This document shows positions 10,075 through 15,142 of a stretch of 34,902 nt of DNA, piece by piece (positions within the stretch are counted from its first letter, which is position 1; each line of letters begins with the position of its first letter). The DNA comes from Alphaproteobacteria bacterium. GTDB lineage: Bacteria > Pseudomonadota > Alphaproteobacteria > Bin95. A program made the translations under genes and the position numbers. The notes beneath the pieces are model-generated. The model had not been told where the DNA came from. It was given only the letters and a program-made list of their open reading frames with translations, and made no database searches. Location: assembly GCA_026710105.1 (NCBI GenBank), contig JAPORR010000074.1:1-34902 (forward strand), written 5' to 3'.

Positions 10075-11292
10075 TCAATCGTCGCTGTCGAGTCCATAAG
10101 CCGTATGCAATGCCCGCGCCGCTAATTCCGCATACTCCTCCGCGATCAGCACGCTGACCTTGATCTCGGAGGTGGAGATCACTTCGATATTGATGCCGCG
10201 TGCGGCGAGGCTCGCGAACATTCTCTGCGCGACACCAGCATGGCTACGCATTCCGATACCGACGACCGACACCTTGGCGACATCCGGATCCGGCACCAGG
10301 GAGTCGAAGGTAAGCGAGGCTTCCTTCAACAGAGCCGTGGCACGCGTGAGGTCGGGTTTCGGGACAGTGAAGGTGATATCCGTATGCGAGCCACCGTCGG
10401 CAACATTCTGGACGATCATGTCGACATTGATCTCGGCGTCGGCGAGCGGGCCGAAGATCGCTGCGGCGACGCCCGGACGATCCTCTACGCCCGTCAGAGT
10501 GACCTTGGCGTCCTCGCGCGAGACGGCAACGCCTGTTACCACCTGTTTTTCCACTATCTCATCCTCGCCAACAATCAGGGTCCCCGGTGTCTCATCAAAG
10601 CTGGAGAGCACGCGGAGTCGTACGTTGCGCCGCATCGCCATGGCAACCGATCGCGTTTGCAGGACCTTGGCGCCCTGGCTCGCCATTTCCAGCATTTCCT
10701 CGAACGCGATGCGCTCAATCTTCCGCGCTCTCGGGACTATTCTAGGGTCACAGGTATAAACGCCATCCACATCGGTATAGATGTCGCACCGGTCTGCCTC
10801 CAAGGCCGCTGCCAGTGCCACCGCGGTCGTGTCCGAGCCACCGCGGCCGAGCGTGGTTACGCGTCCCTCCGGGGACAGTCCCTGGAAGCCTGCCACCACG
10901 GCGACCTGCCCAGCCGCCGCTGCCGCACGCAGTGGTCGGCTTTCGATATGTTGGATACGCGCCCTGCCATGTGCGTCGTCCGTACGGATCGGCACTTGCC
11001 AACCGAGGAAAGACCGAGCCGGCACACCCAGTTCCTGCAGAGTGAGTGCCATCAGGCCGCTCGTGACCTGCTCGCCGGTGGCAACCACTGCATCATATTC
11101 AGCCGTGTCGTATAGCGGCGCAACGGCGGCGACTTGCCCAACAAGCTCGTTGGTGACCCCCGACATCGCCGACACCACCACGGCCACCTCATGCCCCGCA
11201 GCAGCTTCACGGGCGATCCGCCCGGCTGCATTGCGGATATGCTCCCGGTCAGCGACGGAAGTGCCGCCGAATTTCAAAACGAGACGAGCCAT
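10075..11292 (-). CDS. lysC: Aspartate kinase
   Basis: It phosphorylates L-aspartate, the first step to lysine, methionine, threonine and diaminopimelate. The protein is 405 residues. The amino-acid kinase domain starts with KFGGTSVAD at about 7-15 and includes TLGRGGSDTTAVALA and YTDVDGVYTCDPR. Two ACT domains occupy about 265-405 (VTLTGVEDRPGVAAAIF and VSVVGIGMRSHAGVAQRMF) and bind the feedback inhibitors, usually lysine and/or threonine. The start is set at the ATG giving MARLVLKFGGTS; the open frame extends 26 codons further up but without family similarity. It heads the minus-strand run and diverges from ubiG with an 84-nt gap. Confidence 0.96.
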   Translation of the reverse strand: MARLVLKFGGTSVADREHIRNAAGRIAREAAAGHEVAVVVSAMSGVTNELVGQVAAVAPLYDTAEYDAVVATGEQVTSGLMALTLQELGVPARSFLGWQVPIRTDDAHGRARIQHIESRPLRAAAAAGQVAVVAGFQGLSPEGRVTTLGRGGSDTTAVALAAALEADRCDIYTDVDGVYTCDPRIVPRARKIERIAFEEMLEMASQGAKVLQTRSVAMAMRRNVRLRVLSSFDETPGTLIVGEDEIVEKQVVTGVAVSREDAKVTLTGVEDRPGVAAAIFGPLADAEINVDMIVQNVADGGSHTDITFTVPKPDLTRATALLKEASLTFDSLVPDPDVAKVSVVGIGMRSHAGVAQRMFASLAARGINIEVISTSEIKVSVLIAEEYAELAARALHTAYGLDSDD

Positions 11293-11376
11293 GAAATACC
11301 CTTCGACCGCCTGCAACTGCTTGCCGCCAGCGGGCGGAGGCAACATATTCCGGCCTCCCGGCTGGAACAAGTTGTG

Positions 11377-12423
11377 ATGACAGAGCCTGGCGCAAGCGTG
11401 GATGTGGAAGAAACCCGACGTTTCGCTGCCATCGCGGATGAGTGGTGGGACCCTGGTGGCAAATTCGCGCCGCTACATGCCATGAACCCAGTCAGGATCG
11501 GCTGGGTGCGCGATCGGATTGCCGACCGCTTCGGGCGTAACCCGCTGGCACCGCGGCCGCTGATGGGGCTCAGTCTGCTGGATGCTGGTTGCGGCGGCGG
11601 CCTCGTCGCGGAGCCGATGGCGCGGCTAGGCGCCACCGTCACTGCGATTGATGCAGAGCCAGAAACCGTGGGCATTGCACGCGCCCATGCCGAGGCGGCC
11701 GGCCTTAGGATCGATTATCGCTGTGCTGCAGTCGACGCGCTTGCTGGCGAACGGTTCGACACTGTTCTCGCACTGGAGCTGGTCGAGCATGTCCCGGATC
11801 TTGGCCGTTTCGTCGGTACGGCAGCAGCCCTGCTCAAACCGGGCGGGCTCATGCTGTTCTCCACCCTGAATCGCACGGTGGCGAGCCTGCTCAAGGCGAA
11901 GATCGGCGCGGAATACCTGCTGCGCTGGCTGCCACCAGGCACCCACAATTTTTCACGCTTCGTGAAGCCCTCCGAGCTGGCCCGCGCCGTCCACGCGGCG
12001 GGTTTGCGCCCAACCGCGGTTTCAGGCATCAGCTATGCACCTCTTTCTGGCGCCTGGTCCCTTACCCGTGACCTTTCAGTGAACTATCTGATGGCTGCAA
12101 TCCTGCCTGCCCTCGGTCTTGCCAGTGACTATGGCGGCCACGAGGCTGGCCCGGTCGAACGCGATGAAACGCCCCCCGACGGGGTTGGCAAGCGGGTGGA
12201 TGCGATGAAGACGCTGCTGCAGAATCACGATCCGCGCCTTTCCAGCGACAGCAGCCGACGCGCGCAGGAAGACCTACCGCAACCGCTCTATGACAGCCTC
12301 GGCTACTATGAGCGCTGGCTGCTGGCTCTCAAGGCCAATATCGTCGAACTCGGCATCCTCAGAGAAGAGGAGATTGCCGAGCGCCTTTCCCGATACGCCG
12401 CAAAGGACATGTCCAACACATGA
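11377..12423 (+). CDS. ubiG: UbiG methyltransferase fused to a nitrile-hydratase-beta-like helical domain
   Basis: Residues 1 to about 242 are UbiG, the SAM-dependent O-methyltransferase that acts twice in ubiquinone synthesis. Visible are FAAIADEWWDPGGKFAPLHAMNPVR, motif I LLDAGCGGGLVAEPMARLGA (68-87), LVEHVPD, NRT, and the usual end DLSVNYLM (232-239). Normal UbiG stops at about this point, near 240-250 residues. Here the frame continues without a stop to 348. The extra segment (about 250-340) reads SDYGGHEAGPVERDE, then DLPQPLYDSLGYYERWLLAL, then GILREEEIAERLSRY. That pattern (DxGGxxxGP, then YxSxYYxxWxxxL and GxxxxEEI) is typical of the N-terminal domain of nitrile hydratase beta subunits. 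An internal ATG at 12091 (Met239) could also start a 110-residue standalone product. The stop overlaps the next gene (ATGA). The UbiG call is firm; the domain assignment of the tail is from memory. Confidence 0.88.
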   Translation: MTEPGASVDVEETRRFAAIADEWWDPGGKFAPLHAMNPVRIGWVRDRIADRFGRNPLAPRPLMGLSLLDAGCGGGLVAEPMARLGATVTAIDAEPETVGIARAHAEAAGLRIDYRCAAVDALAGERFDTVLALELVEHVPDLGRFVGTAAALLKPGGLMLFSTLNRTVASLLKAKIGAEYLLRWLPPGTHNFSRFVKPSELARAVHAAGLRPTAVSGISYAPLSGAWSLTRDLSVNYLMAAILPALGLASDYGGHEAGPVERDETPPDGVGKRVDAMKTLLQNHDPRLSSDSSRRAQEDLPQPLYDSLGYYERWLLALKANIVELGILREEEIAERLSRYAAKDMSNT

Positions 12424-13259
12424 AAACCGGTGTTTTCATTTTCCCGACGGACTACTCTATCGACATTACTGAACTCGCCGTCGCGCTTGAGGAGCGAGGC
12501 TTCGAATCGCTCTTCGTGCCCGAGCACACCCACATCCCGACCAGCCGGCGTTCACCCTTCCCGGCCGGCGGCCCCCTGCAAAAGCGGTATGCGCACACCC
12601 ACGATCCCTTCGTCGCACTTGCCTTCGCGGCGGCTGCGACGGAGACGCTTACCATCGGCACCGGCATATGCTTGCTGGCGCAGCGTGATCCCATCGTCAC
12701 GGCCAAGGTCGTGGCAAGCCTGGATCGGCTTTCTGGGGGGCGTTTCGTGTTCGGCCTTGGCGGTGGCTGGAACGTTGAGGAAATGGAGGATCACGGGGCA
12801 ACCTACCGCACCCGCTTTGCGATCCTGCGCGAGCGCGTGCTAGCGATGAAGAAGCTTTGGACAGAGGACGAAGCTTCCTTCTCCGGGAAGCATGTATCCT
12901 TCGAACCCTGCTGGTCCTGGCCTAAGCCCGTCCAGACGCCCAACCCACCGATTTTGATGGGCGGAGAGACAGATTACACGCTGCGTCGAGTAGTAGACTA
13001 TTGCGACGGCTGGCTGCCGCGGCTGCGGCCAGGCTTTGACCCCAGAGCCGAGATGGATCGGCTGCGCGTCCATGCCGACACCGCCGGGCGGGACATGACT
13101 AGCCTGCAAGTCACGCTCTTCCGCGCGACTCCGGACAAGAAATTGCTCGCCGCCTGCCACGACGCTGGTATTGATCGTGCATTGTTTGAAATACCGGATG
13201 TCAGCCGCGACGACGCACTCAGGCTTCTAGACGATTACGCCCCGCTCGCCGCGCCCTGA
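12420..13259 (+). CDS. LLM-class flavin/F420-dependent oxidoreductase
   Basis: The 279-residue TIM-barrel protein belongs to the bacterial luciferase-like superfamily. It opens MKTGVFIFPTDYSIDI and continues with SLFVPEHTHIPTS, IGTGICLLAQRDP, LDRLSGGRFVFGLGGGWN and PPILMGGE. The length and the PEHTHIP and GGGWN segments resemble the F420-type TIGR03619 subgroup, but use of F420 rather than FMN cannot be proven here. The substrate is unknown. The ATG overlaps the ubiG stop (ATGA), so the two are translationally coupled. About 90 nt separate it from the next LLM gene. Confidence 0.85.
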   Translation: MKTGVFIFPTDYSIDITELAVALEERGFESLFVPEHTHIPTSRRSPFPAGGPLQKRYAHTHDPFVALAFAAAATETLTIGTGICLLAQRDPIVTAKVVASLDRLSGGRFVFGLGGGWNVEEMEDHGATYRTRFAILRERVLAMKKLWTEDEASFSGKHVSFEPCWSWPKPVQTPNPPILMGGETDYTLRRVVDYCDGWLPRLRPGFDPRAEMDRLRVHADTAGRDMTSLQVTLFRATPDKKLLAACHDAGIDRALFEIPDVSRDDALRLLDDYAPLAAP

Positions 13260-13352
13260 TCCCTGGTCGGCGCAGCTGCTTTCTCTGAAAAGATGGGGGA
13301 TCGAAGCGGCGGCGTGCTATGATGCACGTAACAGGTTTCGGGAGGCAGCAAG

Positions 13353-14390
13353 ATGCAGTTTTCCCTATTCGTTCATATGGAACGGGTGACGCCGCAACAG
13401 GATCATGCCGAACTCTACTGCGAGACGCTGGAGCTCTGCCAAATGGCAGACGAAGGTGGTTTCGAGGCCATATGGACAGGCGAACACCACGGCATGGATT
13501 TCACCATCACGCCGAACCCGTTCATCACACTCGCTGATATCGCGAACCGGACAAAGCATGTCCGTCTAGGCACCGGCACCATCGTGGCGCCCTTCTGGCA
13601 CCCGATCAAGCTAGCGGGCGAGGCAGCGCTGGCCGACATCGTGACCGGCGGGCGGTTGGAACTCGGTATCGCGCGCGGCGCCTATAGTTTCGAATATGAG
13701 CGCCTCTCGCCAGGGCTGGACGCTGCCTCGGCAGGGGCCGCGCTGCGTGAGGTGGTGCCCGCCGTGAAAAAACTTTGGCAGGGGGACTATGCGCATAACG
13801 GCAAGCGCTGGCAGTTTCCCAAGACCACCTCTTCTCCGAAACCAGTCCAGAGCCCGCATCCGCCGCTCTGGATCGCCGCCCGCGATCCTGACAGCCATAA
13901 ATTTGCTGTCGCCGAGCACTGCAATGTGCAGGTGACGCCTCTCTGGCAAGGCGATGACGAAGTGGAGCGACTGATGCAGCGCTTCGAGGATGCGTGTGCC
14001 GCTTGTCCGGAGGTCCCACGGCCGCAGATCATGCTGCTGCGCCATACCCATGTCGGCGCGGATGAGAAGGCGGTAGAAGTAGGGGCACAGGCGCTCAGCC
14101 GGTTCTACTGCCATTTCGGCGCCTGGTTCCGCAATGAACGCCCCATCGACCAGGGCATGATTCAGCCGCTCTCGGAAGGGGAGATGGCTAAGCTGGACAT
14201 TTTTTCGCCGGAGAAGATGCGCACTAACAATGTCGTTGGCACGCCGGAAGATGTGATCTTGCGACTCAAAAACTACGAGACGATGGGTTTCGACCAGTAC
14301 AGCCTGTGGATCGATAACGGCATGCCACTTGCCGAGAAACGGAAGTCGCTCCGCCTCTTCATCGACAATGTGATACCCGCCTTCGCATGA
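13353..14390 (+). CDS. LLM-class flavin-dependent oxidoreductase (luciferase-like monooxygenase)
   Basis: The 345-residue protein is a luciferase-like TIM-barrel enzyme of the FMN-dependent type. It shows MQFSLFVHMERV, IWTGEHHGMDF (a GEHH motif common in the family), LGTGTIVAPFWHP, DIVTGGRLELGIARG and a C-terminal VVGTPEDVILRLKNYETMGFDQYSLW. A GGGAGG-like Shine-Dalgarno (cgggaggcagcaag) precedes the ATG. A TATGAT box at 13318-13323 could be a -10 element, but no good -35 is present. It overlaps the following hydrolase by ATGA, which suggests the two act on the same compound. The substrate is unknown. It is not a close copy of the upstream LLM gene. Confidence 0.86.
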   Translation: MQFSLFVHMERVTPQQDHAELYCETLELCQMADEGGFEAIWTGEHHGMDFTITPNPFITLADIANRTKHVRLGTGTIVAPFWHPIKLAGEAALADIVTGGRLELGIARGAYSFEYERLSPGLDAASAGAALREVVPAVKKLWQGDYAHNGKRWQFPKTTSSPKPVQSPHPPLWIAARDPDSHKFAVAEHCNVQVTPLWQGDDEVERLMQRFEDACAACPEVPRPQIMLLRHTHVGADEKAVEVGAQALSRFYCHFGAWFRNERPIDQGMIQPLSEGEMAKLDIFSPEKMRTNNVVGTPEDVILRLKNYETMGFDQYSLWIDNGMPLAEKRKSLRLFIDNVIPAFA

Positions 14391-15142
14391 GCACCCCCGC
14401 CGCCGGGTTGGCGACCATTGTCTTTGTACACGGTGTCGGTCTTGACCGGCGGATGTGGGACGGAGTTGCGTGCTGCCTTGCCGGGCGGCTCCACTGTATC
14501 ACCTTCGACATGCCGTGCCACGGCGAGGCCGCTATGCCGGAGAGCGGGGTCACGTTAGCGACATTCGCCGGGACCTTGGCGGATATTGTGGATGACCTTG
14601 ACAGCGCGCCGGTCGTCGTCGGTTTCTCAATGGGTGCGATGGTAGCACAGCGCTTCGCGATCGACCGGCCGGGCGCTCTCCGGGGGCTGGTGCTGATGAA
14701 CGCCGTGTTCAACCGTGACGCAGACCAGCGCGCTGCCATATTGCAGCGCCTCGCCGCCGCGGAGCATGCTGGCCCAGCAGGTACGGTCGACTCGGCGATC
14801 GAACGCTGGTTCACAGAGGATTTCCGGAGTAACTCGCCAGGACTAGTCGATGCCGTCCGCCGCCGCCTGCTTGCCAATAATCCGGCGGCCTATTTGGCTG
14901 CTTACAGGGTATTCGCCACGGCGGACGCTGCGCTCGCCCGTGAAGCCGCCCGCATCACCTGCCCTACCCTCGTGATGACAGCTGAGCACGACACTAACTC
15001 CACTCCGGCCATGAGCCATGCGCTCGCAGAGACCATCCCATATGCCAGGGCGTTGGTGCTCGGCGACCTCGCTCACGGAGCCCCTATCGAAGCACCCACA
15101 CGCGTTGCCGACGCTATTTTCGAGTTCGTCACGAGGCTTTAG
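14387..15142 (+). CDS. Alpha/beta-fold hydrolase
   Basis: The protein is 251 residues with an alpha/beta hydrolase fold. The oxyanion-side HG motif is FVHGVGLDRRMW (about 13-24). The nucleophile elbow is GFSMGA with Ser81. A likely acid is the Asp in TAEHDTNS (about 205), and the catalytic His is in LAHGAPIE (about 230). The layout is like 3-oxoadipate enol-lactonase and other small-ester or lactone hydrolases. Its ATG overlaps the stop of the upstream LLM monooxygenase. A plausible but unproven idea is that the monooxygenase makes an ester or lactone that this enzyme opens. Confidence 0.85.
   Translation: MSTPAAGLATIVFVHGVGLDRRMWDGVACCLAGRLHCITFDMPCHGEAAMPESGVTLATFAGTLADIVDDLDSAPVVVGFSMGAMVAQRFAIDRPGALRGLVLMNAVFNRDADQRAAILQRLAAAEHAGPAGTVDSAIERWFTEDFRSNSPGLVDAVRRRLLANNPAAYLAAYRVFATADAALAREAARITCPTLVMTAEHDTNSTPAMSHALAETIPYARALVLGDLAHGAPIEAPTRVADAIFEFVTRL

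Follow-up and report, generated by a model that had tools for sequence, protein, structure and literature searches.

UbiG, a SAM-dependent O-methyltransferase of ubiquinone synthesis, acts on ubiquinone precursors; its substrate is a lipid, and it works at the membrane as a peripheral protein. In nitrile hydratase (NHase), the beta subunit combines an N-terminal helical domain (PF21006) with a C-terminal SH3-like domain (PF02211), and the NHase activator P14K binds the alpha (catalytic) subunit and mediates metal loading (PMC3511329). In an alphaproteobacterial contig of 34,902 nucleotides, hereafter the window, we found a ubiG gene whose frame continues into a domain related to the beta subunits of NHase and thiocyanate hydrolase (SCNase), the latter called ScnB. 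Both parts are known, and the combination is new: we found it neither in the other genera searched nor in the literature searched, where no paper joined UbiG, nitrile hydratase and fusion. That the architecture would be new was also the expectation of an earlier note on this DNA, and it is moreover shared across a genus and maintained by selection.

The fusion gene is free of stop codons over its 348 codons (Table 1) and is the only UbiG match in its source genome at the search threshold. The earlier note had put the end of the UbiG part near residue 242, with the frame running on into a coherent second domain, and both points hold. TIGR01983 (curated cut-off 102.95 bits) matches residues 12-238 over model positions 1-228 of 228 (254.5 bits, E 7e-76). 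A full-length AlphaFold2 model, built from 54 aligned sequences (mean pLDDT 90), has a UbiG fold up to residue 242 (last strand 236-242), a disordered stretch of linker and arm at 248-257 (pLDDT < 50) and a separate bundle of five confident helices at 269-346. The predicted UbiG part matches solved UbiG structures (E 7.6e-22 for 4kdc; TMt 0.82-0.91 for 4kdc and 5dpm, the latter 0.91). Translation beginning internally, at the conserved ATG within VNYLM, was also considered and rejected for want of a convincing ribosome-binding site by eye.

Table 1. Features of the window and of related loci (L numbers; G numbers denote genomes)
Feature	Location	Strand	Basis or remark
Fusion gene	11377..12423	+	348 codons
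UbiG domain, residues 1-242	11377..12102	+	TIGR01983 match; fold match to E. coli UbiG 4kdc/5dpm
Linker, residues 243-250	12103..12126	+	differs between species; dN/dS ~0.68; low model confidence
DYGG arm, residues 251-268, DYGGHEAGPVERDETPPD	12127..12180	+	extended N-terminal arm typical of ScnB/NHase beta
Helical bundle, ScnB / NHase-beta-N domain, residues 269-346	12181..12414	+	PF21006, five helices, fold matches
LLM (luciferase-like) monooxygenase gene	12420..13259	+	PF00296
Tandem of two luciferase-like monooxygenases and alpha/beta hydrolase	12420..15142	+	downstream of fusion gene
lysC (aspartate kinase), divergent from ubiG	10075..11370	-	named from sequence
Free ScnB-like gene and TerC-family gene	L022:4072..5114	+	same pair in L023, L024, L025, L027
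TerC-UPF0093 fusion protein gene between two ScnB-like genes	L032:4885..5949	+	G042; one ScnB-like gene in SCNase-like operon
Free ScnB-like genes, family f30	L034:4469..4768; L222:4243..4731; L223:4051..5292	-; +; -	G042, G172, G346
ScnB-type domain and NHase-alpha-type subunit in one frame, family f26	L030:3810..5012; L037:2158..3159; L191:4445..5503	-; +; +	333-400 residues
Two tandem NHase-beta-N-like genes, NHase alpha gene, accessory-like gene	L227:3480..5492	-	G092

The profile search that the earlier note had proposed for the C-terminal part was significant. PF21006 (gathering cut-off 21.5 bits) matches residues 288-343 in the whole protein (36.9 bits, E 4.3e-9) and scores 40.3 bits (E 3.9e-10) against the last 98 residues alone; it exceeds the cut-off in the six other fused proteins of the genus as well. 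The match spans the helices, and the DYGG arm upstream of it aligns with homologues. When the domain was modelled alone, its first 30 fold matches in the PDB were all NHase or SCNase beta subunits, with probabilities of about 0.9 or more and E-values that are weak (8e-3 upward), the domain being very small; the top TM-score, 0.71, went to SCNase beta (2dd4). In the fusion protein PF02211 has no match (in the source genome it sits on contigs C68 and C98), the NHase beta subunit model TIGR03888 reaches only 30-33.7 bits against a cut-off of 152.2, and the NHase accessory/activator model TIGR03889 gives 15.1 bits against 46.

A profile built from the fused copies and from free copies of the domain, which sister genera encode as separate genes, likewise finds SCNase beta first in the PDB (2dd4_B, 48-143, E 2.1e-7, whole domain) and NHase beta next. 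Homologues occur in 108 of 385 alphaproteobacterial genomes, a count that takes in ordinary NHase beta. Forty high-scoring loci from outside the family were read; being among the best by score, they are not a random sample. In 39 of them the homologue adjoins an NHase-alpha-type (ScnC) gene; an NHase-beta-C-type (ScnA) gene is nearly always present too, and the usual order is ScnB-ScnA-ScnC, with the homologue first. The 40th locus, in G107, holds a free copy. A tree places the fused and free copies in a single clade (100/96) within ScnB, nearest to the operonic ScnBs of the same family plus that of G024 (89/89), and NHase beta falls outside ScnB (100/99); since only 100 columns were available, the inner order is only partly resolved, with many forks. 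We conclude with high confidence that the domain descends from the ScnB lineage and not from NHase beta proper. The origin given by the earlier note, NHase or SCNase beta, stands as to the beta N-terminal family, and is narrowed to the ScnB lineage, by way of a free paralogue.

Six other genomes of the genus carry the same full-length gene, 83-86% identical to that of the window and uninterrupted by a stop, and so does an independently binned contig, VXPS01000099, which brings the total to eight fused genes, every ubiG known from the genus (records in the named collection, n=7: JAJEIH, JAJDVH, JAJEAZ, MPNF, JAJECZ, JAJDYL and VXPS). Within the genus, the survey of relatives suggested in the earlier note turned up no stop at the junction. 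The eighth member of the genus, G007, has no UbiG match in its assembly and is thus uninformative. VXPS01000099.1 (L071) is labelled Chloroflexi; its lysC/ubiG-fusion/LLM order is alphaproteobacterial, its identity is 85%, and the contig is probably wrongly binned or wrongly labelled. Averaged over pairs of the eight fused genes, dN/dS comes to 0.154 in UbiG, 0.140 in the C-terminal domain and about 0.68 in the linker: purifying selection acts about equally on the two domains, and the joint can vary freely. With relatives that are named in the collection as metagenome-assembled bins, an assembly or frameshift error, or a read-through confined to one genome, might be suspected; however, the recurrence of one in-frame, stop-free junction in eight genes from several projects, at the identities given above, and the clear codon-level selection signal make an artefact extremely improbable, and the eight copies rule out a single-genome read-through or sequencing error. 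It is virtually certain that this is a natural fusion, kept by selection in the genus.

The surroundings of the gene are also conserved. The start of the LLM monooxygenase gene overlaps the stop codon of the fusion by 4 bp (ATGA), an overlap kept in every fused locus checked (L039, L040, L041, L049, L050, L051 and L071). The divergence of lysC and ubiG is found in sister genera with unfused ubiG too (gene order in L042-L047 versus L039-L051).

UbiG matches were surveyed in 60 relatives and in 262 genomes of a class-wide sample of 385 Alphaproteobacteria. Among the matches listed, none outside the genus continues into the C-terminal domain, and those of other genera that extend beyond residue 255 cross a stop codon on the way; on this evidence the fusion appears confined to one genus. 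Open reading frames of fetched loci were assigned with a codon-usage caller. Several long frames were rejected as candidates: an apparent second fusion in G107 (382 residues) is over-extended, the real gene being a free copy of about 97 residues, and the frames in L187, L190 and L196 (with L211, a near relative of L196) are upstream over-extensions without UbiG.

As the earlier note had observed, the window lacks an NHase catalytic subunit: NHase alpha has no match on its contig. Yet the source genome has two NHase-alpha genes elsewhere, one on C68 in a normal NHase cluster with an accessory gene, the other on C98 in a ScnB-ScnA-ScnC-type operon with its own ScnB. This operonic ScnB is a short protein that lacks the DxGG arm and escapes recognition by Pfam. 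Residues D251, G253, G254 and G258 are kept in 7/7 fused copies, 7/7 free copies and 93-100% of operonic ScnBs outside the family, and are absent from the operonic ScnBs of the family to which the window's genus belongs. Similarly, fused and free copies retain every one of the nine positions that do not vary in 46 other ScnBs; the family's operonic ScnBs fully keep one, the other eight being missing in roughly half or all of these copies, and the source genome's own operonic ScnB has lost most of the nine. Wherever a whole SCNase-like gene set was found in a genome with a free or fused copy, its ScnB is armless, and the same pair of armless operonic ScnB and free armed copy occurs in G107, from another family. 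These patterns suggest a division of labour between an armless operonic ScnB and an armed extra copy, though the pairing may go back to a single inherited event. G224, whose operonic ScnB has a divergent arm, lacks an extra copy. Purifying selection acts on the family's operonic ScnB as well (dN/dS 0.17), which is therefore more than a broken subunit in need of a substitute.

In sister genera, the free gene encodes about 100-130 residues, is 42-48% identical to the fused domain and lies far from the unfused ubiG. No free copy was found in genomes of the window's genus, where its place appears to be taken by the domain on UbiG. Tree and gene order together show the fused domain as the probable derivative, via a free paralogue, of a duplicate of the beta-subunit gene of the SCNase-like operon. 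The simplest history we infer is a duplication of ScnB, its escape from the operon and, in the ancestor of the genus, its attachment to ubiG at the 3′ end. In 5/5 genomes of one sister genus (g2), the free ScnB-like gene overlaps or adjoins a TerC-family gene, a type of TerC that was not found in the window's genus. TerC was rejected as a constant neighbour of the free copy, being confined to one genus; beyond g2 and G042, it was beside or between ScnB-like genes in no other locus read. As the free copies do not sit with ScnA and ScnC (they are beside TerC in one genus and elsewhere in others), their coupling to the ScnA/ScnC operon is circumstantial.

Other arrangements of ScnB-like genes were also observed (Table 1). 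Besides the TerC-UPF0093 gene of G042, there is a second free ScnB-like type in family f30, without ScnA or ScnC neighbours; the copy in L034 lies between cupin-like and isochorismatase-like genes. The family f26 frames, with no ScnA/beta-C-like gene within the fetched loci, would each encode an unusual single-chain SCNase-like protein. G092 has a tandem of NHase-beta-N-like genes.

Taking the elements together in one blended judgement, we lean slightly towards a selected fusion of ScnB ancestry that gives UbiG a partner-binding module. The UbiG part would still methylate ubiquinone precursors, and the C-terminal domain would still be a partner-binding module of the ScnB kind, carried or tethered by UbiG. 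As a subunit or a maturation aid, the module would use its DxGG arm and helices to hold ScnC, the catalytic metal subunit in an enzyme of the SCNase/NHase type. Because the family's operonic ScnB has no arm, the UbiG-borne or free copy may supply the missing part, and a potential partner does exist, since catalytic subunits of the NHase and SCNase-like kinds are encoded elsewhere in the source genome. A role in maturation must be taken seriously beside a structural one, since activator proteins of this enzyme class attach to the catalytic subunit and mediate its loading with metal. We regard a continued partnership with an SCNase/NHase-type subunit as a tentative proposal, with somewhat less than an even chance. 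A more specific version, in which a UbiG scaffold docks such a metalloenzyme at the membrane site of ubiquinone synthesis and donates the lost beta arm in trans, is unlikely; if true, it would amount to a subunit shared across pathways.

The domain could instead serve UbiG itself, as an appended helical bundle that helps it to dimerise, stabilises it or docks it to the membrane or to a complex of ubiquinone synthesis, in which case the SCNase/NHase link is gone. The strict retention of the fusion in the genus with loss of the free copy, the place of ubiG as the anchored gene, still at its ancestral position beside lysC, and the peripheral action of UbiG at the membrane would all fit such a role. 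However, a mere appendage would not need all the ScnB hallmark residues that are kept, including the unstructured DxGG arm, and the free copy of sister genera is conserved without UbiG; we consider this explanation rather doubtful. We are similarly sceptical that UbiG is a passive carrier, with a free ScnB paralogue that has a job of its own, such as metal delivery or activation like P14K/P15K, having been joined to ubiG because this was harmless and guaranteed its expression, and with no interaction between the two halves. The linker, flexible and fast-changing with a separately conserved domain on either side, agrees with this, as do the neighbouring TerC gene in one sister genus, the link of TerC proteins to enzyme metalation in Bacillus (PMC10550928), and the binding of P14K to the NHase alpha subunit (PMC3511329). 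Against it, the domain scores below the NHase activator cut-off (15 bits versus 46 for TIGR03889), and a TerC neighbour is confined to one genus and, among the loci read, G042.

The fusion matters because UbiG is a conserved housekeeping enzyme, otherwise without such a C-terminal domain in the searched genomes. Small ScnB/NHase-beta-N proteins occur as free paralogues besides the catalytic operon, and a fusion selected throughout a genus is a lead on the role of such proteins. It also raises a possible link between quinone synthesis and thiocyanate or nitrile metabolism in sponge symbionts. MPNF, which is Alphaproteobacterium bin95, comes from a Mediterranean sponge, Aplysina aerophoba (PMC5649159), and judged by their names the other fusion-bearing bins presumably come from sponges too. 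The nitrile chemistry of a sponge of the genus Aplysina, with a nitrile-hydratase activity of unknown origin (PMC3766881), is background to the fusion that is suggestive only.

Compared with known systems, the fusion protein is like UbiG (TIGR01983; E. coli 4kdc/4kdr/5dpm) in its full profile match, its methyltransferase fold and a position beside lysC that sister genera share, but differs by about 100 added residues that form a second domain, an extension absent among the listed matches of other genera. The activators P14K and P15K (TIGR03889) are likewise small and of a related type, binding the catalytic subunit and helping to load its metal, whereas the fused domain is under their cut-off and has no activator gene order. 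With NHase beta (PF21006 plus PF02211; TIGR03888) it shares the N-terminal helical domain, above the PF21006 cut-off; in contrast, it has no PF02211, scores far under the TIGR03888 cut-off and lies outside the NHase beta branch. ScnB (2dd4 chain B) resembles the domain in the whole-domain profile match, the highest TM-score, the invariant residues and the place in the tree; unlike ScnB, the domain is fused to UbiG, is not followed by ScnA and ScnC genes, and is a paralogue of the operonic ScnB of the same genome.
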